Origin: Chrysiogenes arsenatis DSM 11915
GTDB taxonomy: Bacteria > Chrysiogenota > Chrysiogenetes > Chrysiogenales > Chrysiogenaceae
Direction: 5' to 3'
DNA: 53,186 bases
Assembly: GCF_000469585.1 (NCBI RefSeq)
Contig: NZ_AWNK01000004.1
Coordinates: 104,311-157,496 of the forward strand
Positions 12,001 to 35,200 of this stretch are shown one piece after another (positions within the stretch are counted from its first letter, which is position 1; each line of letters opens with the position of its first letter). A program made the position numbers and the translations under genes. The notes under the pieces were generated by a model. It was not told where the DNA came from. It saw only the letters and a list, made by a program, of their open reading frames with translations, and did no database searches.

Positions 12001-15000
12001 TGAAGGCTTGATTGTCACCTTCAACAATAGCCTTGATAAAATCGGTCAATACTAAGTTTTCCCAACCAAAATCAAGTTGTATTCCCCAGTCGACCTGTTC
12101 GCCATTGTGTTTAATAGTTCCTAGCCGGTGCTGATATTCAATTGACAGTAAGTCTGGGGTCGGCATGACCAGTTCGAGCATCAATGAGGGCAGTGCGAAG
12201 CCAGCGATATCACCGAGATTAAGCTGAATGCCATTGTCAGTCAGTTCAACTCCAGCTTCCTGAATGCCTTCGCCGTTCAGGAAGTCGATGACATCGAGTT
12301 CTTTCCAACCCATACCAACCTTAAAGCCAAGTGGATGATTCTTATCAAAGATATTGAGAGTGTGGAGGATAATTTCCTTTTCCTCCATCGGCATTTCGCC
12401 ATAGAGAAAAGCAAGAATATCGCCTACAAAACCCTCTGGAGGGGGAATTTCCATCCAGTAACGATTGTCATTAAAATCGGTCGCAGAGAGGTTTATTTTG
12501 GTGAGAATCTCTTCGTCATCGCCACTCTCATTGATGGCAGTTCCATTGTACCCCATGTAGCGATAGATATGGCCGAGCTCGCCTCCACTTTTATGGTCTT
12601 TGGTGACATAGACGTGATTACCAAAGCCAATCTCCACATTCCCTTGATTACTGGTGAAATCGACGCGGATATATTCATCTTTCAGCTTTGGTGCCGTGGC
12701 AGCCGCCATAACGGTGCCATCGGCAAGGATAGAAGGCGAATCGGTAGCTTCAACCCAAATGCCTCCAGCGACGAGCGCTTGGCCAATGGGGCTGAGTAAG
12801 CGGGCGTCGGCATCACTGCTGACGAAGTTCGTGGCGAGCACAACGCTGGCGGCAGCCCCTGCCGATTTTGACTGTGCTTCGCTGTACACGGTGGCACTAA
12901 TCGAGGCCGTAACATCAGCCGTCAAGTTTAGATTTCGACCAATATCCAGCGCCGTATTTTCGATGCGCGCCACAACGGCGATCGGATCGACGGTACCAAT
13001 ATCGGTACCGATCAAAGCGTCAATTGTGCGGGTAAAGATATCCTGGGTTTCATAGCCGAGCGTGTTGAATGCGAGCATAACGCCAACCGCCGTGTCCTGA
13101 GAGGTAACCACCGCCTTGTTATTCGCAATGATGGCGGAATTATTGATGGCACGCACATTCAAATCGCCTCTTGCGCTGATGTTACTGTCGAGCACGAGAG
13201 CACGGCTGTTGCCTAAAATCAGGTTGGTGGCAATGGTACCGCTGGCGGCCAACCCCGATCCTGAGCTTTTTTGGGAGACCATGACCCCAGAGAGCACTGA
13301 GGAGAGGCTGGTTTGTTCTTCGGCTAAAACAGATACGCTCCCGGCGGCAACCACGTGGACGTTGTTCAGCTGCGAGAGCACCTCGTCTTGAATGTCGTTC
13401 AGCGCAACAACCACTCCAACGGCAGTACCGCCTTTGCTGGAGACAGAAAGAATAACGTTTGACTTGATATCAGCACTGCTGGCGGCACGCAGAAGGAGGT
13501 CGCCACCTACTTGAATCTGCTGTTGAGTGGTTGTGGATACGATTTCGGCAACCGCAGAACTGTTGATTTTATTGCTTGATAGGATAAGCCCAACGGCAGT
13601 TCCATTGCCAGCGGCTGAACTGCTATTGATGCTGGCTTCGATACGGGCACCTTTTTTTTCTAAGGGGTCATCTCCGAGTCCTCCTGCCTTCACAATGAGG
13701 TTACCCCCAGCCATGAGTCGCGAATTGGTGACTCTTGCCACGACGTCAGCCGGACTCGCATCACCTATATTTGTGCCGAGTATGGTGTCAATGGTATTAA
13801 AAAGTAAGTTTTGCGCTTGATAGCCAATCGTATTGAAAGCAAGCATCACTCCAATAGCTGTGCCACCGGATGTCATGCTCGCCGAGTTCATGGCGGAGAT
13901 GGTAGAGGTATTGTCAGCAAGCACTGAAATGTTACCACCAGCGATAACGACAGAATCACTGATGGTTGCGGCAGAATTACTGAGCACAAGATTAGTGGCT
14001 ATCAGACCATTAACCGTTAAGCCACCCTTCGTACTGTCGGCGGCTTGAGTGAATTTTTCTTCGCTACTCTCAACACTGCCGCTGAGTTTAGCGCTGATGC
14101 TAGCGGCTTCTAATGCCTGCAAGTTAAAGTCCGCTTCGGCGCGTACGTTGGCGGCGGTAATACTGGCTTGGACATCACTGCGCAGATCGTTGCGCGCGAC
14201 AAGCCCACCTACAGCCGTGCCACCACCACTACTACTGGTTTTCATGCTGATCGTCGCATTTAAAGAGGCATTATCTTTCGCGGAGATTGAAAGGTTGCCC
14301 CCGGCCTGAATGCGCATTTGACGTTCTTGACCGGTGGTTTTTTCGATTACAATACGCGCTATCGAATTGACCATATTACTGGCGAGGACCAGTCCAGCAG
14401 AGAAGCCTGAACCTTCAGTAGCTGCAAGGTTACTAATCGTGGAAAGTAGGCTCTGGCGTGCCGTAGCGGCAATGCGAATGTCGCCTTCGGCCTCTAGCTC
14501 GCTGTTGCGAAGTGTGACTACCACCTGCACCGGATCAGCATTGCCAATACTGGTTCCAAGGAGGGTATCAAGCGCATTGAAGAGTACATTCTGCGCTTCC
14601 CAGCCCATGGTGTTAAAAGCAAGTGTCGCTCCAATGGAATTTCCTGAAGCGCGTGCTTCGGCGACGTTTTCCGCTAACAGGGTAGATGCATTGCGCGCAT
14701 CTATATCCATGTTGCCTCTGGCGGTGAAATTGCTGTCGTTGACGACTATTTGCGTATCAGAGAGTACGAGGTTAGTCGCAATAATTCCCGTAAACGCAAA
14801 TGAAGGAGATTCGGTTGGATCATCGTCCTCCTCTTCCATTTCGTAAGAGTCGGGTTGTTTTCCATCAAGTATGGCCTGTATCACCGTGACACTGCGCGCT
14901 AAAATACTGAGATTCCCCCCAACGGTGGCGTTGGCATTTTGAATATCAACCATTACATCGGAGCGGACGTCATTGCGCGCAATGATACCGCCACCGGAAG

Positions 15001-17302
15001 CACCACCAGAACTCGCTGATCCCATGCGGGTTACAGCAAATATTAAAGCATTATCTAACGCTAAAAGGGTTAAATCACCGGTGGTGCGTTGAGTGGTTGC
15101 ACTATTGGGATTAAAAATAATCTCACTGCGCGATGCCACCATATTGCTGGTCATCACGAATCCAACGGCAAGGTTATCGCCTTCGGTAATAGTTTCGCTA
15201 CTGACAAAAGCATCAAGGGTGGGAGTTGATAAAGCGTACAGCTCCATATCGCCAGCAATATTAAAATCGCTCTCTTCAAATTTTATGCTGGTAAGTAGCG
15301 GTTGCGCGGTACCAAGTGCGGTAGTGCCAAGGAGCGCATCAAGCCCTTGGCTAAAGATATTTTGGGCTCCCCAACCGATGGTGTTAAAGGCGAGCATAAC
15401 GCCAACCGATGTACCGCGAGCATCAACGCCTCCTTCAAGGCGTGCATTGATGGTAGATGTATTTTCAGCTCGGATATATAAATCACCACCATTATTGGTA
15501 GTGAGATTCGAGTTAACAACGGTTACGCTCACTTCGCCAAGCACACGGTTGGAGGCTACAAAGCCATTCAGAGCAAAAGTTGGTACTTTGTCGGACTGTA
15601 TCTCTTCGGAACCGATGCTGGTGGCAATGCCAATAAGGCGTGCATCAAGCTGGGCTTGACTTTCGGCCTCAATGCGGATTCCAGCCGCCCCTGCATGTAA
15701 TGTGCTATCGGCAATACTTATGATGCTCGTATTGTCGACACTATTAAAGGCAAAGGCCATGCTGTAAAGGGTGAATTCGCCTACTTCACCATCTTCTGAT
15801 TCCGCTACAGGGCCGATGGCTTCTGCATGCGTGGCATCAACAGCTAAAATACGCAATCCATTGTCGCCAGCAGTTGCCGTTGTCCCTTGCAAAGAGACTT
15901 CGGAGCGCACTTGGATGGTATTCCACGTAATCATCCCCGTGGCAGAATAGTGACTGGCAGTAGTAGTTTTCAGGTAAATGGCATCGGCATTTAAATTTGC
16001 GGCACCAATAGTGATAAGTGCGTCTTCTTTAACGGTTATCCCAGAAAGGCTACCAAGCAAAGAACTGGCTAATGACGTGTCGATCACTACCATGCTATCA
16101 GTATGAGCCAGCAAACGGAGAGTTTGACCTGTAAGTGAAACATCATCAGCAATGGTGATGGTAGCACTCGATTCGCTATTAAATACATCGCCTGGCGTCC
16201 ATATGGAACTTTCATAATTCCATTGGGTTGCCGCAGTAAGAGCCAAGTGGCCACCGGAACTTATATTGCCATTGATCGCAAGAGCGGCGTTGAGACCTTG
16301 ATCATCATCGCTAAAGTCCTGCGCCAATAAGATAATATCGCCAGTTGAAGTAAGGCTGGCCTGAGCGTTTACACTGATTTGTTCTGACTTTACCAATAGA
16401 TGGGTGGAGCCTAGATCGATAGTTCCAAGAAAATTTATCGAGTCCCAACCATCGCCAGTGTCAAATATCAGGGCGTTCGCAAGAGTAAGATCGATTAAGT
16501 GTGAATGAGAACCGTACGCGACAGAAAGTTTATTGCTTTCATGTTGGGAAACATTGATCGTATCGTTTAGGTTGGTAAATGTAATGGTTTGCGCGCTGAG
16601 AGCCTGTAATTGAAGCGTATTCCCCTGCTCATCAATACGGAGAAATATATTATTGAGATCGTGGTCATATAACCCAGTAATAGTTGTAAAATTCCCTTGA
16701 CGTTCACCATAGGTGAGAAAATCAAACGTTTGTCCTGCGGTAGGGGTAAAACTATCAATAAGCTCTATTTGCAGTGTTCCACTTAGCTCCGCCATGTTGG
16801 TGACGTTGAGCTGGTCAAACTGCGTTCCTGCTACCATGCCACCAATTTCAATATGCAGCAGTGCATTTTCATCCTGGAAATAACTGCTTACTGTTTGCTC
16901 GCCAGGGGAATAGCCAGGAGCTAAAATCCCTTGGTTATGCAGGTGAATTTCAAAGTCGCCACTCCCACCTACCGTTGTGCCGGTTTCAATGGTAAGGATT
17001 TCGTTCCCCACAGAGGTACCAAAAATATCATTAATGTCGCGCACCAGTGCCGACATATCGAACTCGCTATCGGCCGGAGTATCGCGGTCGTAATGCGAGA
17101 TAAAGAGCGATTCTTCCTGTTGATGCGATAGGTTTTTAGCGACTTGATTATCGTACGGAATAGTAATTTCGTTATCATGAGGCATCAGTATTTGAGCTGG
17201 AGCAAATACTGGATCTGCCGAAAGCAGGATACGCGGCTCTAGATTTTCTACTCGGAAAGAGTTCTCAATTTGTTTTTTTACAAAATTTGATCGAGTTATC
17301 AT
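1..17302 (-). CDS. LEPR-XLL giant repeat protein (C-terminus beyond left edge)
   Basis: A single frame stays open from the ATG at 17302 to the left edge, giving at least 5,767 residues with no stop. AGGTGAGGA lies about 7 bases upstream of the ATG. Residues 21-30 read LEPRILLSAD, the defining motif of the LEPR-XLL domain found near the N-terminus of very large bacterial proteins. Most of the rest is Ala/Ser/Gly/Asn-rich repeats whose units run roughly GxAxSxGxAxAxNxI, then VxAxIxxSxVxAxGDIxLxA, as in beta-helix adhesins. The repeats are interrupted by a non-repeat block at about 10,030-12,660 and by five YxYxG modules. From about 2,900 to 1 they become less regular. No classical Sec signal is seen. 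Known for the family: size and the LEPR motif. Inferred: surface or secreted adhesin, export route unknown. It lies downstream of, and in line with, a two-component operon. Confidence 0.93.
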   Translation of the reverse strand, partial: MITRSNFVKKQIENSFRVENLEPRILLSADPVFAPAQILMPHDNEITIPYDNQVAKNLSHQQEESLFISHYDRDTPADSEFDMSALVRDINDIFGTSVGNEILTIETGTTVGGSGDFEIHLHNQGILAPGYSPGEQTVSSYFQDENALLHIEIGGMVAGTQFDQLNVTNMAELSGTLQIELIDSFTPTAGQTFDFLTYGERQGNFTTITGLYDHDLNNIFLRIDEQGNTLQLQALSAQTITFTNLNDTINVSQHESNKLSVAYGSHSHLIDLTLANALIFDTGDGWDSINFLGTIDLGSTHLLVKSEQISVNAQASLTSTGDIILLAQDFSDDDQGLNAALAINGNISSGGHLALTAATQWNYESSIWTPGDVFNSESSATITIADDVSLTGQTLRLLAHTDSMVVIDTSLASSLLGSLSGITVKEDALITIGAANLNADAIYLKTTTASHYSATGMITWNTIQVRSEVSLQGTTATAGDNGLRILAVDATHAEAIGPVAESEDGEVGEFTLYSMAFAFNSVDNTSIISIADSTLHAGAAGIRIEAESQAQLDARLIGIATSIGSEEIQSDKVPTFALNGFVASNRVLGEVSVTVVNSNLTTNNGGDLYIRAENTSTINARLEGGVDARGTSVGVMLAFNTIGWGAQNIFSQGLDALLGTTALGTAQPLLTSIKFEESDFNIAGDMELYALSTPTLDAFVSSETITEGDNLAVGFVMTSNMVASRSEIIFNPNSATTQRTTGDLTLLALDNALIFAVTRMGSASSGGASGGGIIARNDVRSDVMVDIQNANATVGGNLSILARSVTVIQAILDGKQPDSYEMEEEDDDPTESPSFAFTGIIATNLVLSDTQIVVNDSNFTARGNMDIDARNASTLLAENVAEARASGNSIGATLAFNTMGWEAQNVLFNALDTLLGTSIGNADPVQVVVTLRNSELEAEGDIRIAATARQSLLSTISNLAATEGSGFSAGLVLASNMVNSIARIVIEKTTGQERQMRIQAGGNLSISAKDNASLNATISMKTSSSGGGTAVGGLVARNDLRSDVQASITAANVRAEADFNLQALEAASISAKLSGSVESSEEKFTQAADSTKGGLTVNGLIATNLVLSNSAATISDSVVIAGGNISVLADNTSTISAMNSASMTSGGTAIGVMLAFNTIGYQAQNLLFNTIDTILGTNIGDASPADVVARVTNSRLMAGGNLIVKAGGLGDDPLEKKGARIEASINSSSAAGNGTAVGLILSSNKINSSAVAEIVSTTTQQQIQVGGDLLLRAASSADIKSNVILSVSSKGGTAVGVVVALNDIQDEVLSQLNNVHVVAAGSVSVLAEEQTSLSSVLSGVMVSQKSSGSGLAASGTIATNLILGNSRALVLDSNISARGDLNVRAINNSAIIANNKAVVTSQDTAVGVMLAFNTLGYETQDIFTRTIDALIGTDIGTVDPIAVVARIENTALDIGRNLNLTADVTASISATVYSEAQSKSAGAAASVVLATNFVSSDADARLLSPIGQALVAGGIWVEATDSPSILADGTVMAAATAPKLKDEYIRVDFTSNQGNVEIGFGNHVYVTKDHKSGGELGHIYRYMGYNGTAINESGDDEEILTKINLSATDFNDNRYWMEIPPPEGFVGDILAFLYGEMPMEEKEIILHTLNIFDKNHPLGFKVGMGWKELDVIDFLNGEGIQEAGVELTDNGIQLNLGDIAGFALPSLMLELVMPTPDLLSIEYQHRLGTIKHNGEQVDWGIQLDFGWENLVLTDFIKAIVEGDNQAFMPRIDYKVYVDIEDIDDLAPQKFLPREFIIKQPTLNMTFLGKPLQFMFGGERDADGNPPASNLFTLRTLDLEGDDDVSKFVNRSLAPISVTMPKVDLDTYLLNKLKPGLASEILADRDPNYWNQEMVKIDLDGTLEEIANGLKESLKFMPRYLELSDPNVNFELLGFTSDWQLPLSAVLDSIPWMSEGENEKGSFIHIDLLEIYEAILPDFLFSFVDTSMTSKVQLPDINLGDLTPEDFKQYQEYFNMAIVALDAVGFELPLERAPGKTTPDAPAKEATTASLIKAAVPGVSSEQYLELHFDGTDYQGELPELALAMGSKTSAKFQVLPVGQPANELQRLTFIHSKEDYGVQFRLSNGSQTSEVLSFSSNISANAAAIQSVLSAWHGAGNVKVTAEKTALGWSYNISFIGELAATNMAQIRMQRVGDPGTLVVRAETLIEGAEEYTAEMQAELIQGALEGLLGRGNIAVTPYSVSEFIQQYKIVFEGRQATRPIDLLKVNGLSDPEAVQASTGNLKIGKFPIGPGYQFTVPDKEKYTLTVTMDGAKFTTGELEKDASLEQISNALLGARSASGVRLDSLGIKADVLKGDKDGKWIVNFKGSLHGQVITAFSVAGVGGAKTEKSEEKGATAVGALIVRNDIRSSAYASIENARIEAGTVTVTVTEDAQIYAQLDAVAKTGDSKSPGLALGGIIATNLILNESEALIIDSIITTTEGDVAVLAKNNAEIFASNASSISSNGTGVNVTLAFNTIGWQAQNVLFNTIDALIGTSIGNEQPAEVTARIHNSDVNAYGSVIVEANNQATILARVTNETTSELGDKAPDDSSATSVGFVLGSNMVESRAFASISGINHNVNSIMGDVLALTLNDASIKSLVNLSAETGDEGDQAAAIRALASFFGQNYTDYSGVREITLGDRVRIGSSGYTPFDRVAKLQSGDRVTLDWDMAGGAGGTTYQFIGEQALQNQRLDRQNYADTSLWREVEADTGFIYMARENLGEVDLGQEDFTDSSRWLGIDLDAIVDFVAEGTDIIFGESAKGTGFGGLVVRNDVRSDVHALIEDVTIDAGGTVGAKAIESAVILAQEESVVSADTLGINVVIATNTILGGANAVVRDSQIDAGGNLSVVAQSVASIIANVNSEVQATTSIGVTLAFNTIGYKPTNLLYNILDTFGTELGGQQTLNTYAVIENTHFTLSGNLELKAESAGAIAANIVNSALALDVSITETGDSSSNTLTVAPVLAMNKLSTDTRAHIIAAQTMTIKGDVLIVAQGKNEISSEVKASAVSVAASRSGDTRSISIGLSLARNDIESDVIASVAGAPNNIGAKLRADGNVTIEAWREGSILATGTATAVAVAASLKGATSVAGAGTLAFNAINGATNAFVTTMQGFSIGKNMSLFASDTTLIDATITSTAVAVSISLGSKATPAVAIGLSVAANNIGRNTTADIDYDFEHEDTAATLTKGQRVKVVDGPLLGRVYEYIGDNRTETSELLNENYYDNAQWQWVNTVTERTQVLAYIANAATTVGGDLSVEAKNNAFINAKVQTTTVAVAASKGTTVAPSIGGVYSENNIYVDTHAYITSTLPVVAAAINLRAADFSSINSIAGAATVGASLSLKNSVAVTIGLSLAFNEIGNSTKAFIEGAESVTATTGDILINAQASGVTSGIFSLAGAHLSAADFDDAATKESNIEDTDIDEYALDESNDYAILQKLTVALTDAGIKLPEVSDIIADWNYRSNDGEQTLKTGDVIRVDRSHMAGGERDTLYRYLGNEGEIDLSQADYADSTLFEKVIPNPTLSILEPGKSWLMVLADGSSYTLRLSANNNDQVEIIRNTINASSLAASIAVGAGMDNGIAVSGAGAVAYNTMLTSAEAFIRNSRIDSAGDVTITAFSNSGINASVIAASIAVGAGSSNGVGASIGIALARNWIGINSSGQFEGARTHAFLENVNLNAAGDLTLSAVASQTISSFVFSGSVAVAAGGSFGIGASGSGVLANNWIANDVFAGIRGETNGTIEANSITITAYDRSTIESFAGAASIAAALGGTTGVAVSIGASIARNVIDTTVEAAILNATEVISVGNIFIEGQSEAQIEVTSIAASVAAAIGGTSGIALSGAGADAKNYINGNTIARVERSSLEAQGNVIIAARDSSLILADVGSLAVSVGLGGTAGIGASLGVGIARNVIGMREEQDPSYHYTTDQIDISSISSGQIVKVLHGVRGDETYEYIGEEVLYFEAEENGNLSTQDYGNTLLWRQVGLARDGGNVHALVVDSAIDAGGALSLNAQAEQRIEAQVSALSVAVSGGGTGGLGLSGAGVGATNQIYVDVAATITGSQGSGIKADAITLSANDDSVIDARLTGTAISAALGGTVGVAISVGASVAANSIGNQVTAAINQAEVEARSGDIELQAIENASITANVSAISAAASVGGTAGISFSGAFGFAHNVIINQTQALIQDSHIDAVGNVTVLADNLASIRAEVGAASAALAVGGTVGIGIAIGSAQAENSIGGSVQALVSNTNMVARGLVIEAANDAIIEAIVDAKSMAVAGGAVGVAASGAGSVADNTIAMTISAALSGGNVLLLEDARIEAKEHSSILADVTAASLAASVGAFGGSVAIGVSIASNTLDNHIVAQVSATNFASETGNLSVLASDEAQIEAYSEAAAISASFSIGAALAGGGAEAKSTINNLTQALIDDHASLFAAGNILVKANSAAFADSQVRATAVSAGLIAAAAAGSVSLLDFNGVTQAIIGNATVTALGRLSVTANSQLDGYAQSRGLSASTGLSVGASDARIYASGDVTAGLGQNTNITAGILDIHANAQDELYVQSEASSAGLLAGLAGTIAIVGNTRDVNAEIGANSQVDVGSLIVLSSHNQAGDSRADAKALGLLAGTGALVLTEMSGDAYVTIGQNANILARDNVSISAINTGLKERYAHENNLTSGSAGAIGLTALESYTLFGTDASRFTAEVNIADGVHLEVLGSHEAPGRIEINSVADVYAVDSVLVEGVSAFSLSYGRSRIDAATLSHINIGAATLRSDSGDVYLATRTVATANASANMFTAAVLGGVTGADAVGRVSALNLITTNGSTIRGGSVHLLTGVNAQGRVNQLNGYSDAVITTIGMFPSLANPGADFSINEINRIHLQGNTRIQSIGNTYLRAVEGIGGNQRGTESESVLSLSMIPYGSSRNDQGQVEASVNEVLMSTNASVQSALNNQAVMMILPVQAEGQVLFDWNRIGTQLTSAEKATLGIAADVAMEYVALDLSALTADNLTAEELSTKQAIISALAGKFYVIKPVEVAAPIVRLDNVANLLIERHETILGWMSSHAGNAEAIARYQVQLEQVEDALTQLGLMETVVVNGHEYTLIARSMDVAFLDLPNLYAAPGLIFIEAAQTDANMIASRISSGLLKTAEAARIDIVNNTPLQMRIADAVINDARLVRPVNGQMMTFHPGNIYLNNVNLTHATSSGSANSVSILQSSKSASLLGLNQEIAKLLSGPQDMFVLGSVVNQAGSITINNQMGSIQVSGQLLAGTLDIVSAGNFDLNVAGWQHFADPRQLADFVSHYTAVKNDADNAIAKNLAAFESLRAGLLDREMSKIIARGEVNISATYLNLNGIIQSGITDLVLNISADFAPNSSISLYDQAPGGQSLDDHFRPYVFAHGVNFGDVPFKSYFDYATQSIVVEQMTTTPGRVTVTGHIFNTGLGEIRVADGVPNVTINNDSAYELVFDGIDLSVSRPGMLIINDTSRLRKTEYTFASGEITEVNYQGSLVNNRIEYTPLAPSAGGMVVYDIEAMALTRATFESSAEYASRDLLRDTTGRIYYQPTEGTFYSWVEGQSFTQTETRKYEKNSFNLIGFDWGFLVADQSYAWRTVEYTDAAPLLESELILSPNDVPAFVTDSSYGITFEVTLNPDGNYTYVQKNWTTGGGWLRTKTIHTLTTTETGYKDYYNHYLRADYPVTIAVVRSNGTPGLNITSVGSVTFRGDVKLADGSTDAQGNELSQ
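5244..12625 (-). repeat. Five dispersed YxYxG...LWxxV modules in the giant protein
   Basis: Five modules of about 45-60 residues share one layout: a G(D/Q)xV start, a (T/V)Y(E/R/Q)(Y/F)(I/L/M)G strand, a polar stretch, then (D/N)(Y/F)xDxxxWxx(V/I). They lie at about 12447-12625, 9060-9225, 7499-7635, 6640-6785 and 5244-5402. The third reads VYEYIGDN then NYYDNAQWQWV. The fifth reads TYEYIGEE then TQDYGNTLLWRQV. They break the beta-helix repeats at intervals of 0.9-3.4 kb. They look like small beta-barrel inserts. I know of no assigned function. Confidence 0.75.
10030..12660 (-). other. Non-repeat block within the giant protein
   Basis: About 870 residues lack the Ala/Ser-rich repeat pattern. 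They contain ordinary mixed sequence rich in Asp, Leu, Pro and Trp, for example PSLMLELVMPTPDLLSIEY and SIPWMSEGENEKGSFIHIDLLE. The block probably forms one or more globular domains between two beta-helix arms. I do not recognise its family. Confidence 0.6.
12950..15900 (-). repeat. Higher-order super-repeat of about 770-780 bp inside the giant gene
   Basis: The same block, encoding roughly GVxLAFNTxGxxxQNxLFNT followed by DxLxGTxIG, recurs near 13,030, 13,797, 14,575 and 15,350. Spacings are about 768, 778 and 775 bp, or about 258 residues. Each super-unit contains several of the smaller beta-helix repeats. More diverged copies of the block appear near 9,720 and 8,510. Copies differ at many third positions, so the duplication is not recent. 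Confidence 0.75.
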
Positions 17303-21435: not shown

Positions 21436-21462
21436 TGGTGGGCGATACTGGGATTGAACCCG
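21436..21462 (-). other. tRNA 3'-end fragment, likely prophage attachment site
   Basis: The minus strand reads GGTTCAATCCCAGT, then ATCGCCC, then ACCA. This is a T-loop, the 3' side of the T stem, a 7-base acceptor strand, a discriminator A and CCA. The 5' side of the T stem pairs imperfectly, and no D or anticodon arm lies upstream, so this is a fragment and not a gene. A tRNA-Val-like parent (acceptor GGGCGAT) is possible. Tyrosine-integrase phages often leave such a copy at one end. Confidence 0.55.
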
Positions 21463-21562: not shown

Positions 21563-22078
21563 TTACTCCCACCACGCACTCAACTCCCCCGCATTCACAC
21601 GGTCAATAATCCCCTGTTGCTGTCCGAGAATATGACCCACAGCCGCACGATAAAGTTGATTATTCTCCAACACTTTTTCAATCATCAATTCCAGCGATAC
21701 CCCTCGCGCCTGTGCCATGCTTTCCAGCATCGCACCTCCTCCACTTTTCGCCTCTTCCAATTGCACAAACCAACTTTCACGCTCCCCTTGTTCGTAAGGC
21801 TGCGCGATAGCCGCAAGACGGCGCTCACCCTCTTCTCTGATTCGTGAAATTATTTCAGGGTTATGTGCGAGCAGCAGCGAGATATCAGCCTGTGTATCCG
21901 CTTGAAATTCAATTTCTGGTAGTTGTTCCGGTATATCTGAAATAGAATCGGGAATATACACGTAATGACGTCCGTCTATTTCCCTTAACAGTTTAACCCC
22001 TTCAATGTCATGCGAACGAAAATCATAAACTGTGCCGCTGTGTCCGGGTGTGATTGTTTTCTTGTAGCTGTAAATCAT
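21563..22078 (-). CDS. Phage tail-fibre assembly chaperone-like protein
   Basis: The 171-aa protein carries, in its C-terminal half, the pattern of phage tail-assembly chaperones: LAAIAQPYEQGERESWFVQ, then EEAK, then a hydrophobic-rich helix ending GHILGQQQGIIDRV. The N-terminus (MIYSYKKTITPG) is beta-rich. The ATG at 22078 is chosen over a longer frame from 22153 because it overlaps the reverse transcriptase stop as ATGA and has AAGGAG 8 bases upstream. It is the last gene of the DGR operon and may fold or assemble the diversified fibre. Family placement is by pattern. Confidence 0.65.
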   Translation of the reverse strand: MIYSYKKTITPGHSGTVYDFRSHDIEGVKLLREIDGRHYVYIPDSISDIPEQLPEIEFQADTQADISLLLAHNPEIISRIREEGERRLAAIAQPYEQGERESWFVQLEEAKSGGGAMLESMAQARGVSLELMIEKVLENNQLYRAAVGHILGQQQGIIDRVNAGELSAWWE

Positions 22079-23076
22079 GCGGATAACTCCTTGTAGTTTG
22101 GTATTTTTGAAATAAGCTCTGGGCGCATTGCCTTGATCCTCATGCAAAACCATTTGAATGAAGATGTTTTATGAGCGTTACCAAGTATGCTGATAATGCT
22201 TTCAATTTTTCCGCGCTTGATCGCTTTCGTCATACTCTTCATGCTATGTTTTCGCACGAAACGCATATTGCGCCATGTTCTGAATCCAACAAAATTCACC
22301 CCGCGAGATACCTTTGCAATACCCCACTTAGAAAGCGTGAGCTGCAATTGCAGCAATAGAAATTCTTGTATTTTTTTGAGATACATTTTTGCTTGATCGC
22401 TACTAAGCCCGAACAAAATAAAATCATCAACATAGCGCACATACTTGCTGACTTTAAGCTCACGCTGGATAAAATGGTCGAGCTTATTTAGGTATATCAG
22501 CGCCAGCAGTTGCGATAATAAATTTCCAATTGGTACTCCAGTTTTGCCCTCTCCGTTGGCGAATAACATAATCAGGTCAATCAATCGCTTATCTTTGATT
22601 TTCTTTTCTAAAAGATTGCGTAAGGTTTCGCGGTTGATGCTGTAATAGTATTTGCGAATATCAAGCTGAAGCGTGTAGCTGTCGGGCGGCGATTCCCGCA
22701 AGTATTGCTGTGCGCGGTCGCTGGCCTTGTGAGTTCCTTTGTTTCTGCGGCAACCGTAGCTATTGTGAATGAATGTTTTGTCGAATATCGGCAAAATCAC
22801 TTTATAAATAGCATGTTGCACAACAACATCCCTAAAGTCCGGTGCCGATATTTCACGCGGCTTCGGTTCGCGCACAGTGAATTTCTTGTACGGTCGTGGT
22901 GTGTAGTTCCCACTATGCAATTCTTCATGTAGTCGCATGATGTTACCGCCAAGGTCGCACTCAAAAAGATGTACGTTCAATTTCTTGCGCTTGTTCTTTC
23001 TTGCTGTCCGGTACGCTTCGAACAGGTTGTCAACCGTAAAAATCTTGTCATATAAATTACCGAAACGTTTAGGCAT
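22075..23076 (-). CDS. Diversity-generating retroelement reverse transcriptase
   Basis: The 333-aa protein starts MPKRFGNLYDKIF, like other DGR enzymes. It has the DGR-type motif IGNLLSQ (183-189) where group II intron enzymes have a different sequence, the catalytic YVDD (215-218), LDIRKYYYSI in motif A, and a C-terminal thumb region. The ATG at 23076 has AAAGGG upstream. A TTG-initiated extension from 23127 lacks a ribosome site. In known DGRs this enzyme copies template RNA into cDNA with adenine-specific errors, and the cDNA replaces the variable repeat of the target gene. All active-site motifs are present. It is coupled to the downstream chaperone gene. Confidence 0.96.
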   Translation of the reverse strand: MPKRFGNLYDKIFTVDNLFEAYRTARKNKRKKLNVHLFECDLGGNIMRLHEELHSGNYTPRPYKKFTVREPKPREISAPDFRDVVVQHAIYKVILPIFDKTFIHNSYGCRRNKGTHKASDRAQQYLRESPPDSYTLQLDIRKYYYSINRETLRNLLEKKIKDKRLIDLIMLFANGEGKTGVPIGNLLSQLLALIYLNKLDHFIQRELKVSKYVRYVDDFILFGLSSDQAKMYLKKIQEFLLLQLQLTLSKWGIAKVSRGVNFVGFRTWRNMRFVRKHSMKSMTKAIKRGKIESIISILGNAHKTSSFKWFCMRIKAMRPELISKIPNYKELSA

Positions 23077-23121
23077 TTGGATTTTCCCTTTCAGTACTAA
23101 AACGTTTGCCTTTGCAGATTT

Positions 23122-23135
23122 CGCCAAAAATGGCG
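23122..23135. other. Small hairpin between template repeat and reverse transcriptase
   Basis: CGCCA-AAAA-TGGCG on the plus strand gives a perfect 5-bp stem. It lies in the spacer downstream of the template repeat. In the Bordetella phage DGR this spacer is part of the functional template RNA. Confidence 0.35.
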
Positions 23136-23188
23136 GGATGGATCGCTCCCTATGTTTCCAGTTTTTCCAGAGAATTTCAGGATAGAAT

Positions 23189-23301
23189 CATAGTCCGAAG
23201 CCCGAAAGCCAATATTGTTGTTCGTGTTAGATCGGTTGTTATTCCAATTACGCGCAAACACTCCAGCAATGGAACCATTATTCCAATTGCCGCCACAAAG
23301 C
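23189..23301 (-). repeat. DGR template repeat (TR)
   Basis: This 113-bp repeat matches 23789-23901 at 95 positions. All 18 differences fall on TR adenines (minus strand), out of 29 adenines in the repeat. If translated it is dominated by Asn codons (GGNWNNGS, ARNWNNNRSNTNNN), the usual way a TR offers AAY codons for diversification. The first TR base follows directly on the avd stop codon. It should be transcribed with avd and the reverse transcriptase as template RNA. Confidence 0.97.
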
Positions 23302-23730
23302 CTATTGATCGACCACCCCAAGGTTAATTTCACTTTTCAGGTTTCTTATCCAGCCACCAATCATCGCGCCAAGCTCATTGATGTAAACACAAATAGCAGA
23401 GTACCTTCTATTTGCTTCGCTCTCGCTTCGCGTTGACGCGCTATTGTGAAACTCATAGTAACCCAACTCATAGGCAAGATTAACTAGCATCCTTAACTGT
23501 TCATGCCTTACATCTAGCTTGGTAAGGCTTGTCTTGTTGTGGTACCGTTTCTTGCACTCAACCAAAAGAGAGTAAACGTCGTAAGCCGCATTCCGAATTT
23601 CGTTGCACAAAGCATATTTTTCGTGCTTTGGGAAATGGTTCAAGTGGATATTTAATAACTTTATCATTTCCCTACACTTATGGAATATCGTTGCTTGTGG
23701 GTTTTCGTTTTTTGGAATGTGGCGCGACAT
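23302..23730 (-). CDS. avd: Avd-type DGR accessory protein
   Basis: A 142-aa, helix-rich, basic protein sits between the variable repeat and the template repeat, the place and size of Avd. Avd is a four-helix-bundle protein that forms a pentameric ring and binds the reverse transcriptase. Helical stretches such as HKCREMIKLLNIHLNHFPK, EIRNAAYDVYSLLVECKKRY and LTKLDVRHEQLRMLVNLAYE fit the fold, and the C-terminus has INELGAMIGGWIRNLK. AGGGG precedes the ATG. Naming rests on position, size and helix pattern. Its stop codon abuts the template repeat. Confidence 0.85.
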   Translation of the reverse strand: MSRHIPKNENPQATIFHKCREMIKLLNIHLNHFPKHEKYALCNEIRNAAYDVYSLLVECKKRYHNKTSLTKLDVRHEQLRMLVNLAYELGYYEFHNSASTRSESEANRRYSAICVYINELGAMIGGWIRNLKSEINLGVVDQ

Positions 23731-23755
23731 ATATTTACCCCTGCTACTTTACAAT

Positions 23756-23773
23756 GGGGCGCTTCCGCACCCC
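23756..23773 (-). promoter_or_regulatory. DGR target-site hairpin with GGAA tetraloop
   Basis: On the minus strand GGGGTGC-GGAA-GCGCCCC forms a 7-bp stem with one G-T pair and a GGAA loop, 15 bases beyond the end of the variable repeat. Hairpin or cruciform structures with GRNA tetraloops just downstream of the variable repeat are known to promote retrohoming in DGRs. Confidence 0.8.
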
Positions 23774-23780
23774 TAACACT

Positions 23781-25313
23781 TTACAGTACATAGGCCGAAG
23801 CCCGAAAGCCAATATTGTGGCTCGCGTTAGAGCGGTGGCCACTCCAAGAACGCGCAAACACCCCAGCAAGGGAACCATCAGACCAAGCGCCGCCACAAAG
23901 CGGAAAAAGATTGTGACGATTGTGTCTGTAGCACCCATCACCTCCGAACAAATTCGTACCTGTTGCGCTCGTTGCATCATTGTTTTGCTGCACTCCTGCT
24001 GCTGTACGCAGATATCCAGCCCCCGATGCAGCAGGATCAAACACACGATTCGTACCGTTGCCGAAATAGACATAACTCCCCTGCGTCGCGCCGAATGGTA
24101 AATAATCCTCTACGAGATCATACAGCCCTAAAATATGCGCTTCATTACCCCACGCATCCGTTCCAGTGTTCCAGCCGCCCGTCAACGAACTCACTGAAAT
24201 ACTTGGTTTCAGCACGTATGAGTTGCCATTCAGTATTTGCGTCGCACTCGTCGCAGATGACCCCCAAAATGTAACGCCCAACGCAACTTCCCACATGGTG
24301 CCATTCAAGTCGGCAATTCCGCAATTCTGACCGTTGTGTGTGGTTTTTGCGAATTGATTTGCAGAACCAGCGAGCGGCTTGGCCGAAGCTCCCGCATCAC
24401 CAGCAGTGACGAACAATATGCTTGTGTCGTTCACGTCGCGTAGTGCGCCGTTATTACATCCTTTGGGAAAATTAGTCGTTCCTGCCGCATCATACCAAGC
24501 GCAATGCGTCGTACTCGTACTATACTGCGCTTGTGCTAGTGCTACCTTTGCCAGCCATGATTCTTGAAAAATCGTTTTTGCGTTAAATCCTGCACCACGA
24601 GCGCGTGATAACACTACTGCGTCAGCGAGAATACCAGTACAACCAGTCATGCCTTGTGAGCGTGTGTATGTAGTTGTGGTTGTCAAACTTATTGGTACGC
24701 CGTTTTTAACAGACCTACCGTGCGTGAGTCCGTCTGTCGATTTTGAGTTGACGTACTTGTCGTACCAGAATCCCGGACGTATCTGGCCACCATCAATGAA
24801 TGCGCGGTCTAACACATATCCATCAGCATTGGCGGTAGCTTCGTCTGGGAAATCGTATCTAATATCCATCGCATTATTGCCATAGACAGCATAGCGAGGG
24901 CTGTCAGCGTGACCGATACGGTAATAGCCCTTCGGGTTCCATGTGATAATTGAACCATCGCTGTAGATATAGTTTCCAAAATTATCGCTATTGGGATCGG
25001 TAGTACCGAACAATAGAGAAATATTAGCCGGTAGCGCCAGTGGATACACCCCCATCCCAGCACCAGCAGTTCCCATATCACGCCATAGATGAGTGGGGGA
25101 CGGCCACGACTCGCCATTCCACAGCGGCAAGCCGTTTGACTCGGTGATTTTCTGAAGGGCGGTTGGTATGTTTGGATTATGCGCAATATTGCCAGTTGTA
25201 TCTGTGAGGTATAGATCGAATCCGGCACCAACGCGAACAAAATACATTGTGTTTGGCGTCAGTGTTCCGGGTAGTGTTCCAATCACTTTTTCAAAGCGGA
25301 CTATCTCGTTCAC
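23781..25313 (-). CDS. DGR-diversified tail-fibre protein with C-type-lectin/FGE-like C-terminus
   Basis: The 510-aa protein starts at a GTG directly after the stop of the upstream fibre gene. Its N-terminus (about 1-45, LPGTLTPNTMYFVRVGAGFD then LYLTD) is the fibre-attachment type shared with its neighbour. The C-terminal half has the formylglycine-generating-enzyme variant of the C-type lectin fold: IADLNGTMWEVALGV and LCGGAWSDGS, ending NIGFRASAY. The variable residues (about 471-508) fall in this last segment, where the fold shows its ligand-binding face. By analogy with Mtd of Bordetella phage, it should be the receptor-binding tip, changed by the adjoining retroelement. Confidence 0.93.
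   Translation of the reverse strand: MNEIVRFEKVIGTLPGTLTPNTMYFVRVGAGFDLYLTDTTGNIAHNPNIPTALQKITESNGLPLWNGESWPSPTHLWRDMGTAGAGMGVYPLALPANISLLFGTTDPNSDNFGNYIYSDGSIITWNPKGYYRIGHADSPRYAVYGNNAMDIRYDFPDEATANADGYVLDRAFIDGGQIRPGFWYDKYVNSKSTDGLTHGRSVKNGVPISLTTTTTYTRSQGMTGCTGILADAVVLSRARGAGFNAKTIFQESWLAKVALAQAQYSTSTTHCAWYDAAGTTNFPKGCNNGALRDVNDTSILFVTAGDAGASAKPLAGSANQFAKTTHNGQNCGIADLNGTMWEVALGVTFWGSSATSATQILNGNSYVLKPSISVSSLTGGWNTGTDAWGNEAHILGLYDLVEDYLPFGATQGSYVYFGNGTNRVFDPAASGAGYLRTAAGVQQNNDATSATGTNLFGGDGCYRHNRHNLFPLCGGAWSDGSLAGVFARSWSGHRSNASHNIGFRASAYVL
23789..23901 (-). repeat. DGR variable repeat (VR) in the fibre gene
   Basis: It covers the last ~39 codons of the target gene. Compared with the template, it has 8 A-to-C, 8 A-to-G and 2 A-to-T changes and no other difference. 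They alter 12 residues: six Asn become Ala, Ser, Asp, Gly or His, with further Asn, Thr, Ile and Asp sites changed as well. The 24 bases at 23795-23818 are identical in both repeats and serve as the mutagenesis-homology anchor. One further A-to-C difference lies just beyond, at 23794. Confidence 0.97.
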
Positions 25314-28043: not shown

Positions 28044-28300
28044 TTGACAACCCCCGCGCTTGCTGCTAGTGTCCGCCGCAATAGGTGCTAGTAACACCCA
28101 ACACAAGGCGGATCATCACGCCCCGTAAGCGCGGTATTTTTATGCCCGAAAATCATTTATAATGGTGGCATTCCTTTACCTTGTTGCCTATGGCGGCGGG
28201 AGTACGACGAAATAAGGCGCTTGCGCACGAATAAGTCTGCTGTCCTTGTGCAGTTACTAGCTCCCGCCTTTAGTAAGGGCGCAGAACACAAGGGAGGTGT
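28044..28300 (+). ncRNA. c4-type antisense RNA / leader region ahead of the antirepressor
   Basis: The stretch resembles the immunity leader of P1/P7/P4-like phages, where c4 RNA represses the icd-ant message. A promoter-like TTGACA with extended TGCTAG lies at 28044-28072. GGCGGGAG (28195-28202) is perfectly complementary to CTCCCGCC (28261-28268), and CCTTGTG (28244-28250) to CACAAGG (28288-28294) beside the ant ribosome site. TATAAT occurs at 28158-28163. I recall similar leaders from enterobacterial prophages. Exact RNA ends cannot be given. Confidence 0.5.
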
Positions 28301-28304
28301 CGCC

Positions 28305-29210
28305 ATGACACACACAGTTAATTCCACCACGTCTCACGTTGTTCCCGTTTCTTTTCACGGCCACGAATTACTCACCACCGAAAAAGACGGCAAGGTCTAC
28401 GTTGCCATGAAACCCATCGTCGAAGCGATTGGGTTAGATTGGACGGCGCAATTCAGAAGAATCCAACGACAGCCTGTGTTATCTCAAGGTATTGCCATCA
28501 TGGCAACACCCTCCGCAGGTGGCGAACAGGAAACAACTTTTCTCCCCCTCGACCTACTCAATGGCTGGCTCTTCGGTGTTGACGTCAACCGCGTTAAGCC
28601 CGAACTCAAAGAACGCCTACTCCAATATCAAAAAGAATGTTACCACGCCCTTGCCGACTACTGGGGCAAAGGGGTAGCCGTGAACACCCGCGTGACCATC
28701 ACCCCTGAACAGAAATCCGAACTCCAGCAGTACGTCAAACAGATCGGCGCGGCCAAGAAGTGCTACGGTGCCATCTGGGGGCGGTTCAATAACCACTTTA
28801 AACTCGGCAGCTACACCGAACTGCCGTCAGCGAAGTTTGACGAAGCCATGACCTACCTTGACCGCCTCGCGCAAGAACACGGCCTTGGCGAATACAAAGA
28901 CCGCCTTGATAAATTGCGCGACACACCGGGCGCGATGCTCGATGCCGCGCTTGATGAGTTTGCCAACCTTGGTGACATGAGCGAGCACGGCGTTTCCGGA
29001 ATGGATGCCTTCCGCTACGACAGACAGCCAAGTAAGCTGTTTGCCTTCTTCTCCCACATCATGCAGGGAATGCCGCTGGCCGCCCAAGCGCTGCAAGAGT
29101 ACAAGGCAATGAAAGCCAAGCAGGTTAAGGATGCTAAAACAATCGATATGATCAGCACGACGATTGAGGAGCGGAAGAAGGATACCATGCCGCAACCGAC
29201 GACAGCATAA
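28305..29210 (+). CDS. ant: P22-type phage antirepressor
   Basis: The 301-aa protein has the P22-antirepressor N-terminal domain (about 10-110): VPVSFHGHELLTTEKDGKVY, AMKPIVEAIGLDW, then FLPLDLLNGWLFGVD and RLLQYQKECYHALADYW. A helical C-terminal region with TPEQKSELQQYVKQIG follows, as in related Ant proteins. Start 28305 is chosen for the strong GGGAGG 7 bases upstream. The frame is open further upstream to a TTG at 28221 but has no ribosome site there. Such proteins bind and inactivate the prophage repressor. The upstream c4-like leader would keep it silent in the lysogen. Confidence 0.85.
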   Translation: MTHTVNSTTSHVVPVSFHGHELLTTEKDGKVYVAMKPIVEAIGLDWTAQFRRIQRQPVLSQGIAIMATPSAGGEQETTFLPLDLLNGWLFGVDVNRVKPELKERLLQYQKECYHALADYWGKGVAVNTRVTITPEQKSELQQYVKQIGAAKKCYGAIWGRFNNHFKLGSYTELPSAKFDEAMTYLDRLAQEHGLGEYKDRLDKLRDTPGAMLDAALDEFANLGDMSEHGVSGMDAFRYDRQPSKLFAFFSHIMQGMPLAAQALQEYKAMKAKQVKDAKTIDMISTTIEERKKDTMPQPTTA

Positions 29211-29260: not shown

Positions 29261-32200
29261 CTACAACCCAACCGCCCTGACGTTCCGCAGATATTCACGG
29301 TTATAGTCGTACACCAGCTTATATTTCGACTCCGGCAGATTCAACTTTGCCCACCGCAGGAACTTCATTCGCTCCTGATTGCTCGGTGCTCCGGCAATGA
29401 GTATCGGCTGACGCACCCGAAGCGATGCCTGTAATGACGTATGAATACTCTGGCGTTCCTTGAAGCTCCCAGCATTGCGCTTCGCCTCACGAATCAACTG
29501 CCGTGCCGTCTCCCTATCACCAAGCAAGACAGCCTCGTATACCGCTTGATTCAACGGGCTACGCTCGGTTTTTCCGAACCGGCCTGAAGAAGTCCGCTTC
29601 GACTCAATCCCCATGTGTGACGCATACCGCCGCGTTACTTGGCGAATATCGTTAATATCGCGCCGTACTTTCTCAAGGCGAACCTCGTTCAAATCAATAT
29701 CGGAATAAATCCCCGCAGTCATACCAGCACGCTTGTAGCTGCGATAGAACGCAAATGCCTTTTGTCCGATCTGGTCAATGTCGCGTCCGGTCAATGTACC
29801 TTGCTCAATATAACGCATCAGCAGTTCTGTCACCGCGCTAATCGTTGCAAGCCCCGGAGGATCAAGCGGACTCTTCACCCGTTGCTGGTCAGTAATATCC
29901 ATCCCCATCTGAATATAATTCCCAAAGAAGCCGAACGCAGCGCCAGCCATCAACGAAGCATGTGCGCGGCTGAACATGAGCGCCATTAGGTACGCCCGAT
30001 CTTCCTGCTTCATTGCCTCCTCAATCTCTTCCCAATCCGCACCCGGATCGCTCAGGCCGAACAGTGCTGCCCGTGCCGTAAGTACCGCCGTGCCGCCCAC
30101 GAACGCCGTGGCGAAGTAGCGCAGTATTGGCACCAACGTCCGCACCATTTCCTTTGTGTCGCCGCTCTTGATTGCATCGACAAACGGAACCAGCATATTC
30201 TTCCAGAACATCCGGCTTACTTGCGTTGCGAACTTCTGGTACTTGAACAGGAACCGCCCAACGCGAGTATCGACGTAAATCGGCACTTGGTCAATCCTGT
30301 ACGAACCTTGCGGAATATTAACCATCAGTCGCAGGAAGCGACCCGTCTCTTCGCCCTTGCCGTTTTCTGCAATCAGCTTGTCAGCGTGAATGCCGTTTTG
30401 CTCCATGAATTTCAGGTACTTCTTGCTGTCGTCACTGTTCATGTTGGCGTTCCACGCTTGGAGTGCATCGGAAAGCTGGATCATCCCCGCCGCCAGTGCG
30501 TGAGAACGGATGATATTTTCCGTTGGCGTATATCCACCCCATTTCATTGTCCATGCTGCAAACTTCGAGAGCTTGTCCTTTACTTGGCCAGCCGCATCGA
30601 AATAAGTGTCCGTGCTTTCGGTATCGCGCAGAATGTTCATCACATCCTTGCCGAGAACACCAAGGCTAATGCCCGTTTGCTGAATCTCTTGCCACTCCTG
30701 CGTAAGCTTCGCGTATGCACGCGCAGCCGTTTTCCAGCCAAAGAGTTGCGTGGTAAGCTGACTACCGCCGATCACGTTCAGTATTGCCGTGGCGGGGTTC
30801 CCAAGCTGCATAGCCGTTGCCAAAATGTTCAGGTTATCCATGAGCGAAAGGATGGTATCGGGAGATTGGCGATTATAAACCCGCGACTCTATGGCGCGAA
30901 TATAATCAATCGTGCCGGGGTCGAAGCTCTGCCCTGCCACTTCCGCGAACAGGTCTTTGGTTCCTGCCGTTGTCGCTTGCCCGAATTGTTCTATTTGGCT
31001 CACCCGCGTTGCCCACTTGGTCGTGTACTTCTGAAATGCCGTCCAAGTGTAGTCGTAAAATATTTCCGGCAACTTCGCACCACGCGCCCGCTCGACTCCG
31101 GCAAAGTAGTCGTTTTTGATCTCGGTCGTGAAGTAGCTTTGCAGATAGTCCATTGCCTCCATAGGTTCTTTGATATGCCCACCATCAAGCAATGCTGCCA
31201 CTATTTCATTCCAAAGTTCAATATTGTTTGCCGGATTACGGAGGACTTCCTGTACTTCTGGCCGAATTGCACGCGGCCAAAACTCACCCTTGCGGATACG
31301 GCCAATTTTGCGCCATCCACCCGCCGCTTTCGGATCGGCAACCAATATGCCTTCGAACCCGTCAGGCTGCTTGATAGTCTGGTTGATCGTACCCATGTCG
31401 AAGTAAACCGCTTTCACCTCTTCGATCAAAGCACGCAATTCAGGATGGTTTGCAATGACTGCATCAGCTTCCGCTTTGCGCCCGTTGTCGTGGTGCTTCC
31501 AGTATTCGGCAAAGAGCTTTGTCGATTCGTCGTCAGTCACCTTATCCAGCAGTGGCTTAATGCGCCCGTTTACAAATCCCGTGCGCTCGTCCACGCGGTC
31601 ATAGAAACGGTCAACGCGGTTCCCAAGGTCGATCAGCATAGGATGCTTCGAACGACGCAAACGGTCGGTGGCCGACTCGAACAGGCCGATACCCTTCATT
31701 AAACTTTTGGCCGTAGAATCAATCCTTGCCGGTGTCGGGATGGGGGCGATGTTCTGCGCTGCAGTATTCGTTGGCGCGGATGATCTTGAATAGCGGATAC
31801 CGGAACTCTGGCCATCGCCTCTCTCCATATTCACTGCATTCTCAGTAGCAGATTGCGCCATGACGACAATATCTGCCGCGGTAAGCTCATTCGCCCACTT
31901 CACAAAGCGGAGCCTGTCAGCACCCTTAATGGCACTACCAAGAGCGCGTAATTGCTTGCGTACCCATGCAATGAATTTCTGCGAGAGGGGAACATCCGGA
32001 TTAGCTTCGACGAAGTAGCCAAGCGCCTCCTCGGTTATCAGGTGCGCTTCGGTTTCCTTTGGCACACGGTCAAACGCGGCTCTTACCCTTGGATTCAGTG
32101 TGCGCATCTTCTCGAACTGTTTAAGAATACCCTGGAACTCTGCATCGTTCTGACCAAGCTGGCGCAAGTGGACACCGACCTCATGGAGCATCAGCCCCTT

Positions 32201-35200
32201 AACGTCGTGGTCTTTGCCGATGTTATCAGCGACCAAGTGCGCTACGCCGTCTTTGACATAACCAAGCACACGCCCGTCAGCGGAGTATTTAACGTCGGTG
32301 GTAGTGGTCAAATCCCGCTCCATCTGTGCGCGGGAAATGATCTTGAATTTCCCCGTACCCATCAGCAAGTCGGCAAAACCTTTGACCTTGCTGAACGCTT
32401 TGTCAACGGCGTCCTTGAGCGTTGACGCGGTGTGTGCGTTGGCGAGTGGCGTGGTTGCGGCCTGATTATCGAAAATATGGATATTGACAAAATCGCTGTC
32501 GCTTTCCATATTATCAGTGATGGAAACCTCTGGTTGCATCGAGAACCCGCCCCCCTCGGCAGATATCCGGGGTACAGGGCGGGTTTCTTTTTTGCGATCC
32601 CATAACTCTTGCGGGTTATGATTGACATTATAATAAAGGTTTCCGCTATCATCCTCTGCTACTGTTACGCCAGCATGGACATTCTCCCCGTCAATACTTA
32701 CTATGCCGTCGAAATAATGGAATGCAACCACATTGTCATCACGACCTACTTCCTCATTACGCCCATGATAGCGCCCATTTTCTATGATATCTCTCACGGA
32801 AGGTATCAATTTAACTTTCAGCGGATTACGCTTCAGGCCGTCTTTTGTCTTTCCCCATCCCTTCGACGTAAACCGTATATCGCCTATCTCCTCACGGTGC
32901 GCTACCGTGCCTTGCAGGTTTTCGCGGTAGTATTCACGCGCGGCAGCAAACAGGTCATCACCCTGAATCTCGTCCCCAGTGAGTTTCGCGACCGTTGGAA
33001 TATCTGATTTACTGCGGCTGAAAAGCTCCACGCCTTTATCTGTCTCGCGGGTTTGCACGGTATCAAAAAGATTTTGGAATGCTTCCGCAATAGGGGCAAT
33101 CTCATCTGGTCGCAGATAAGGGTACCGATCCTGATTGCGCCGGAAGTCAAACGCGCCAACAACATTGGCAAGGTAGTCGTTGTGGTAGCCGTTTTTGGTC
33201 ATATCTTCGATGACGAAGTTCTCGAACGCTCTGGATGCCCGCTCAAGTGTGCGGCTCCAGTAGTCGTTACTGCCCTTGTCGTTTTTGGCTGAACGCTCGG
33301 ACATTGGCGAATCGTTCAGTTTTTCCACCAAGTTAGCAAAGGCTCTTTCGACCTCCGGCCGCACACCTTCTGGGTGGTTTGGGTCAAGGCTCCAGTTCTT
33401 TTCCTGAAAATGTTCGTTATTAGGATTCCTCTTGCGCGCCGCCTCAAGATAAGCGCGCGATTTTGGATGTGCCGGATAATCCTTATGGACGTACATTTGT
33501 TCCGGCTTGTGGGTAATGTAGTTCGCATCACGGAACGCCTTTTCATCACCTGTAAATTCTGTCACGCCACGTTTGCGAGAAAAGTAATTGTCCAGTGCAT
33601 GAAACCACTCGTGGGCAAGCGAACCCGACCCGCGTGTCTTTGTCAGGTTGATAACGGTTTTGTCCGCCTCATAATGCGCACTCGCTTTGCCGCCGCCACG
33701 CGAACCGAAGCCAAGACCAAGTGTGCCATTCAGCGATATAGCTTTTGGTGGAATACCGACGATATTTGCCAAGTCCATCAGTGCATCGTAAGCGTCATTC
33801 AAATCCGCTTGCCGTTTGCCTTGCTCAACCCAATTGCCGAACTCAACACCACGGAAACCAAATGTATCAGCGAACTGTTCAGGGGTAACGTCTTTCCCTT
33901 TGCGGTAATCGGAACCAGCGCGGGGTCGTTCCTCTTTGGAGCGCACATCGGATTTCTTGACGTTATCGCGCTCTTTAATTTTTTCCCACGCCTCTGCAAG
34001 CGCCTCGATGTTGTTCTTGCGGTATGCAAGTGCTTCTTTGCTGGTAGGGAATCTTTCTGTGAGTGGACGATATTCTTTATCCCCTTTGCGAAAGACGGCG
34101 AACCCTTTGTCTTTTGAACCACGAATTTCGTAGGCATCTGCGGTCGATGTTGATTTACCTGTTGCGGTGCGGTCGGTTTTCAACATTTCGCTCGCGACAT
34201 CAATAACGACGTTTTCCATTTCAATTATCGAATCGGAGGCGTTGAGATCAATGCGCTTATAGTTTTCATCAACTTGAATCAGCGCGTTCGCTCTTGGAAC
34301 ACGCTCTCCATTATCGTTGTATGTGTATGATTTAGAGTAAACTTGCGCCTCACCGATACGATCCCATTGATCACGCGGTATCGATTGTAGAATACGGACG
34401 TGCACGGCATCGTTGTTGGATTTACGGATTAAATCGAGCGCCGCATCATTGTCCATAGTGCCAACGCGAGCCATAAACGCACGGATGGCTTTTACGTCCT
34501 TCACCCACTGAGCCAGCTTGTACCCTGAGCGCGGCTTGTTGGGTATCTTGTTTCTGAAAACCGTGGCGATTGCCGCCGTCTTGTCGTCCATCTTGTCGAT
34601 ATCTTCTTTCGGCCATATCTTCGAGAGTGGCATATTGTTAAGCTCGGCATCGCTGTATTCTTTATCGAAAGAAGAGCGCCATGTGTCTTTCTTCGCCCCG
34701 CCGATCTTCTCTCCAACATCATCGATCTTCTCTGCTGGCTTGGCAGGTTTCTCTTCTGTTTTTACTTCCGTCTGTGTTTTTACCTTCGCCTCCGTCGCCT
34801 TCTGTGCTGCTGGCTTGCCGTCGCCTTTTGCCTCTGATTGAACGTCTGCGGCCTTCGACTCTGTCTTTACGTCCGGCTGAATGTCCGCTTTCTGATTCCT
34901 CGATGCTCCGCCCCATACATCCGGGGTAAAGCGCACCGTCATCCCTTCCCGCAATTCGGTCTTAGGGAGAAAGGTTTTTGCTTTTAGATTGAACGTGTAC
35001 GAGTCATTGAAGCGCAGGAATAATTCGTCGCCATCCTTGACCACTTTGAATACCGGAGCCTGTTTGAACTCTGGAACCCTGCTCACGAATTTTCTAAAAA
35101 CCTGCCCCACTATCTTGCGCTGCTTTTCATCGCCATTAGTGAAAGTTGCAGCATCAATAACCGTGTCGGCCTTTATCTCGTTAAGCGACGCCAGACGTGC

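Follow-up and report, generated by a model that had tools for sequence, protein, structure and literature searches.

The window, meaning the whole stretch of DNA analysed (53,186 nt of Chrysiogenes arsenatis DSM 11915), contains a complete BPP-1-type diversity-generating retroelement (DGR) on its minus strand at 22075-25313. Read along that strand, the cassette runs from the target gene with its variable repeat (VR) through a hairpin, avd, the template repeat (TR) and a spacer (Sp) to the reverse transcriptase (RT), confirming the order target-VR, hairpin, avd, TR, RT that the first-pass annotation had likened to the Bordetella phage element.

25314-25889, minus strand: upstream tail-operon gene (phrog_7946), N-terminus weakly resembling that of the target
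23781-25313, minus strand: DGR target gene, 510 aa, with a C-terminal domain of C-type-lectin type that bears the VR
23789-23901, minus strand: VR, 113 nt, with 17 mutagenic A changes and one fixed difference
23756-23773, minus strand: post-VR hairpin, GGGGTGC-GGAA-GCGCCCC, a 7-bp stem with one G-T pair and a GRNA loop
23302-23730, minus strand: avd, accessory variability determinant, 142 aa (Pfam bAvd, phrog_3206)
23189-23301, minus strand: TR, 113 nt, beginning immediately behind the avd stop codon
23077-23188, minus strand: spacer (Sp) RNA between TR and RT, 112 nt
22075-23076, minus strand: DGR reverse transcriptase, 333 aa from ATG (phrog_1423, 1e-108; PDB 8ub7 bRT, 1.9e-57)
21563-22153, minus strand: downstream gene, function unassigned (phrog_2618)

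TR and VR are exactly 600 nt apart and mismatch at 18 positions, all 18 at adenines of the TR, which has 29 (hypergeometric chance 1e-13). Eight of these adenines are replaced by G, eight by C and two by T. The first-pass claim of 113-bp repeats, 600 bp apart, with 18 adenine-only differences (p about 1e-13) was thus reproduced exactly. The differences alter 12 codons and leave two silent. AAY accounts for most A-bearing TR codons (n=11); adenine mutagenesis of the TR can reach no stop codon and about 2e15 proteins. A genome-wide look found no further copy of the TR anywhere in the 2.83-Mb genome, and the DGR therefore has a single VR. The hairpin starts 15 nt beyond the VR. Its folding energy alone is not unusually stable (z -1.2). 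The requirement for a post-VR hairpin is known (PMC3240598), and both this GGAA hairpin and the sequence pair IMH/IMH* (GCCT in VR, GACT in TR) are present.

The RT carries the motifs first read in it, IGNLLSQ (with SQ in motif 4) and YVDD, and falls in the DGR clade. Its best PDB match is BPP-1 bRT, 8ub7, covering almost the full length, and its start is most likely the ATG at 23076 (MPKR..., compare MGKR... in BPP-1), not the TTG at 23127. Avd scores above the cut-off of Pfam bAvd and slightly below that of NF033474, and matches the solved Bbp7/Avd structures of the PDB in profile search. The comparison with DGR families that the first-pass annotation had proposed therefore assigns both proteins, the RT to phrog_1423 and 8ub7 and Avd to bAvd and Bbp7/Avd. 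Single-protein scans of two collections for relatives of the RT found nothing; alignment queries did find them.

The VR lies at the 3' end of an open reading frame with a C-type-lectin fold. No Pfam family matched the target. Modelling, also proposed at the first pass, gave a pLDDT of 78 (alignment with 29 relatives). The best PDB matches of the model are the variable proteins TaqVP of Thermus aquaticus (5vf4, 3e-14, 16% identity) and then Mtd (1yu0-1yu4, 2e-4, 12% identity), with the FGE-like PvdO weakly matched, which bears out the "lectin/FGE-like" fold. Residues 79-510 form a module common to relatives; the N-termini differ, as would be expected if the N-terminus fits each phage's own tail.

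The cassette shares with the BPP-1 DGR (mtd-avd-TR-brt) its gene order, the TR right after avd, the post-VR GRNA hairpin, homologous RT and Avd, a lectin-type C-terminal VR and an IMH complementary to Sp. However, the window RT is 37% identical, the target N-terminus is unrelated, and host and capsid lineage differ; the IMH of the window shows one fixed A/C difference (plus flank), whereas BPP-1 has five mismatches. Among named phages the closest RT is that of Pseudomonas phage Bise (OR683401, 53.7%), whose DGR has the same GACT/GCCT signature and a 51% identical Avd. In Bise, however, a J-type baseplate gene adjoins the DGR, and the likeness of the targets is limited to the C-terminal part. 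Taken together, we consider it very likely that the cassette is a complete BPP-1-type DGR that sits in a prophage late operon and has a target of receptor-binding type. It is a well-preserved, otherwise ordinary DGR of a known type. Many thousands of DGRs are known already, and the new one is a phage DGR from a small phylum that has been little studied; we found no literature naming Chrysiogenes together with DGRs.

Prophage setting

The cassette lies in a tRNA-Val prophage whose capsid gene is KPP25/AP1-like.

21436-21460, minus strand: attachment-site core, 25 nt, at the tRNA-Val 3' end; duplicated beside the integrase on contig C14
50025-51161, minus strand: major capsid protein, 73% identical to that of Acidovorax phage AP1 (closest) and 48% to that of Pseudomonas phage KPP25
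52414-53148, minus strand: IstB, from an IS21-family element at the end of the contig; the insertion apparently lies in a small gene adjoining the portal gene

The portal gene is on C16, whose beginning is the same IS21-family sequence as the end of C2. The end of C14 is a multicopy IS256-family element, found also near the C16 end and with 14 matches in the genome, mostly identical. The prophage thus seems to be spread over C14, C16 and C2 and to hold two IS insertions, across contig joins that we infer. The assembly, too, is broken at copies of these two IS families. Of what a functional temperate phage needs, integrase and att sites were found, but IS elements appear to interrupt the prophage across C14, C16 and C2. 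Because the prophage is probably interrupted by IS21-family and IS256-family elements, current phage production is doubtful. The cassette itself is intact, as the first description had it.

The same insertions raise the possibility that the element is a recent fossil, its TR/VR differences recording past activity, with phage genes broken by IS elements and neither phage nor DGR now working. The IS21-family element at the C2/C16 junction adjoins the portal gene, and the IS256-family element at the C14 end lies beside a 5'-truncated exonuclease-like ORF, both consistent with such decay. However, RT, Avd, target, TR, hairpin and Sp motifs are all intact and free of stop codons, and the TR-VR differences are purely adenine-specific, unlike those of the second DGR of this genome (see below). 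We regard a fossil as a real but rather unlikely possibility.

Three other genes in the window were recorded. A P22_AR_N/ORF6C antirepressor-like gene (28221-29210, plus strand) lies within the late operon on the opposite strand. The gene at 29261-37801 (minus strand) encodes a 2846-aa virion-type protein (phrog_616) with a weak match to an endolysin-annotated family. One open frame of 5767 codons (2-17302, minus strand) runs off the window and adjoins a host two-component pair; it is probably a giant surface protein outside the prophage.

Diversification and the fixed position 108

Comparison of VRs among relatives, a check proposed with the first annotation, was made on 115 viral-contig pairs that share the same TR but differ in the VR. 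At TR adenines 1606/3163 sites differ (51%) versus 113/9854 other sites (1.1%), in pairs that are not independent, some contigs recurring. In close relatives of the RT clade, the VR has another base at 53% of TR adenines (G in 47%, C in 27% and T in 26%). Scans found no close relative, nor a second isolate of this phage. In the C. arsenatis strain, the divergence of VR from TR points to DGR activity, and diversification at the population level is seen in relatives only.

One difference stands apart.

23194, minus strand: TR adenine 108 (GACT; the VR has C), a fixed IMH* difference

GACT in the TR and GCCT in the VR are found at position 108 in 63/65 relatives, where mutagenesis would give mixed outcomes. 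The 18th difference, A108C (Asp507Ala), is on this alignment no product of mutagenesis but a site at which IMH* and IMH are fixed for different bases across the RT clade. Base 108 is most likely outside the transferred tract, so that the 18 changes and 12 altered residues first reported, though correctly counted, come down to 17 mutagenic changes and 11 residues. In four loci of the window's RT clade (L134, L136, L183 and L184) the GACT/GCCT signature was not found or differs, L183 having GATC/GCTC.

Complementarity between VR and spacer

23788-23794, minus strand: VR initiation segment (IMH) CCTATGT, exact complement of Sp ACATAGG; the TR has ACTATGA
23149-23155, minus strand: Sp segment ACATAGG, complementary to the VR IMH and presumed by analogy with BPP-1 to coincide with or adjoin the cDNA priming site

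BPP-1 has the same property: its VR TGACCACCT is complementary at 9/9 bases to Sp AGGTGGTCA, a stretch of the spacer whose last base is at the priming site, the adenine A56. In 64 relatives, with pairing anchored on the AGG of Sp, the VR pairs at positions 1-5 in 63, 62, 62, 55 and 45 loci, and the TR in 0, 62, 62, 16 and 53. The TR pairs with Sp as well, less well close to the primer and better at a distance from it. Each of the four Watson-Crick combinations of VR and Sp is represented at position 4 (T:A 25, G:C 12, A:T 10, C:G 8), and when Sp segments were swapped among loci the observed pairing was reached in 0/20000 trials.

Five further scans yielded three RT clades: W (window-like), B (BPP-1-like) and C (CTTTTG), the last of which takes in the second DGR of the C. 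arsenatis genome. Over the first k bases, the VR is perfect in 89/107 non-redundant loci of W (k=4), 34/37 of B (k=5) and 51/55 of C (k=4). The TR is perfect over the same bases in none of B, one of C and none of W, where the anchor, TR GACT (227/238 loci qualified), fixes the position-1 TR mismatch by construction. In each clade one TR mismatch is typical, that at position 1 in W, 5 in B and 3 in C. At positions 6-9 the TR pairs in about 60-80% of loci and the VR mostly does not, except that in clade B it pairs to position 7. In mixed distant DGRs, with the register set from the TR alone, the VR repairs a TR mismatch in 22/58 versus 16% expected (p 5e-5); in archaeal and CPR DGRs the pairing is weak or undetectable. 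Longest-run complementarity without an anchor was uninformative across diverse DGRs, and anchored or TR-chosen registers were used instead.

The match could be a by-product, with the VR 3' end kept for the C-terminus of the lectin fold, Sp kept for RNA structure, and their agreement a coincidence or a leftover of TR:Sp pairing. Conserved residues are indeed encoded by the VR ends, TR and VR are homologous, and TR:Sp pairing is strong and covarying, with 17 compensatory double changes at position 6 and 14 at position 7 of a 106-taxon RT tree. However, on the same tree VR and Sp show nine such changes at position 4 (shuffled mean 1.4, maximum 6 of 300), involving VR bases partly outside the TR/VR homology. 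An earlier 64-taxon tree had given only three double changes per position, and sampling was then widened. In three clades, moreover, the VR pairs exactly where the TR does not, and the VR match is lost in slid registers. We consider a by-product unlikely. The pairing is short, 4-9 bp; as a sequence pattern the VR:Sp rule is well supported, and as a mechanism it is a proposal.

In BPP-1, cDNA priming takes place inside IMH* and uses an adenine of the spacer (PMC12875486), and a 21-bp part of IMH with five TR mismatches sets direction (PMC3240598). How cDNA enters the VR was still described as incompletely understood in 2026 (PMC12875486). In the window, RT and Avd would reverse transcribe an avd-TR-Sp RNA with errors at template adenines, and the cDNA would replace the VR, rewriting adenine-bearing codons (11 of them AAY) of the lectin-like tip; the phage could then sample new receptors, if the tip binds receptors as supposed. 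The priming site in the window's RT clade is placed by analogy with BPP-1. On that placement the cDNA would carry at its 5' end an Sp segment that is a perfect short complement of the VR IMH and is mismatched to the TR IMH*. This difference leads us to propose that annealing of the Sp-primed cDNA, or of the RNP, takes place across the VR junction but not across the TR. Stated generally, and with somewhat better than even confidence, DGRs may choose their target by RNA-DNA pairing: over 4-9 nt the VR IMH perfectly complements the cDNA-priming Sp segment, the TR IMH* retains one or more mismatches within positions 1-5 and forms its pairs beyond them, and the covalent RNA-cDNA strand would anneal across the junction in the VR only, making transfer one-way. 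If true, the rule would explain one-way TR-to-VR transfer, an open mechanistic step, and would make natural DGR targets predictable from sequence. No prior statement of the proposal was found in the DGR literature searched, which does not include the three most relevant papers.

Finally, an ordinary duplication shaped by mutational bias, in place of a DGR, is refuted as an explanation of the repeats by 18/18 differences at A (p 1e-13) beside Avd and an RT of the DGR clade; no point in its favour was found, and its probability is negligible.

Spacer RNA and other DGRs

23158-23181, minus strand: stem-loop of Sp, conserved, in which relatives show compensatory changes

In this stem-loop 94% of cells are paired, and the covariation score is 0.608 versus 0.186 shuffled. 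Rfam has no family match in the window, Sp RNA included. The Sp RNA, with its conserved, covarying stem-loop, could serve as the basis of a family with which to locate DGRs. The motifs TGGA, AGGGA, TCCNGC and GCGAAATC recur in the Sp RNA of the window and its relatives.

The genome has a second DGR on contig C22 (L023 9984-12838), with an RT 38% identical, an Avd, a target of FGE-like appearance and an adjoining DNA adenine methylase. Just 13/20 of its TR/VR differences are at A, which may mean that its VR goes back to an earlier TR or is in decay. Another family of the same phylum has a third DGR, which is of clade C type (L026 7929-10712, genome G010).
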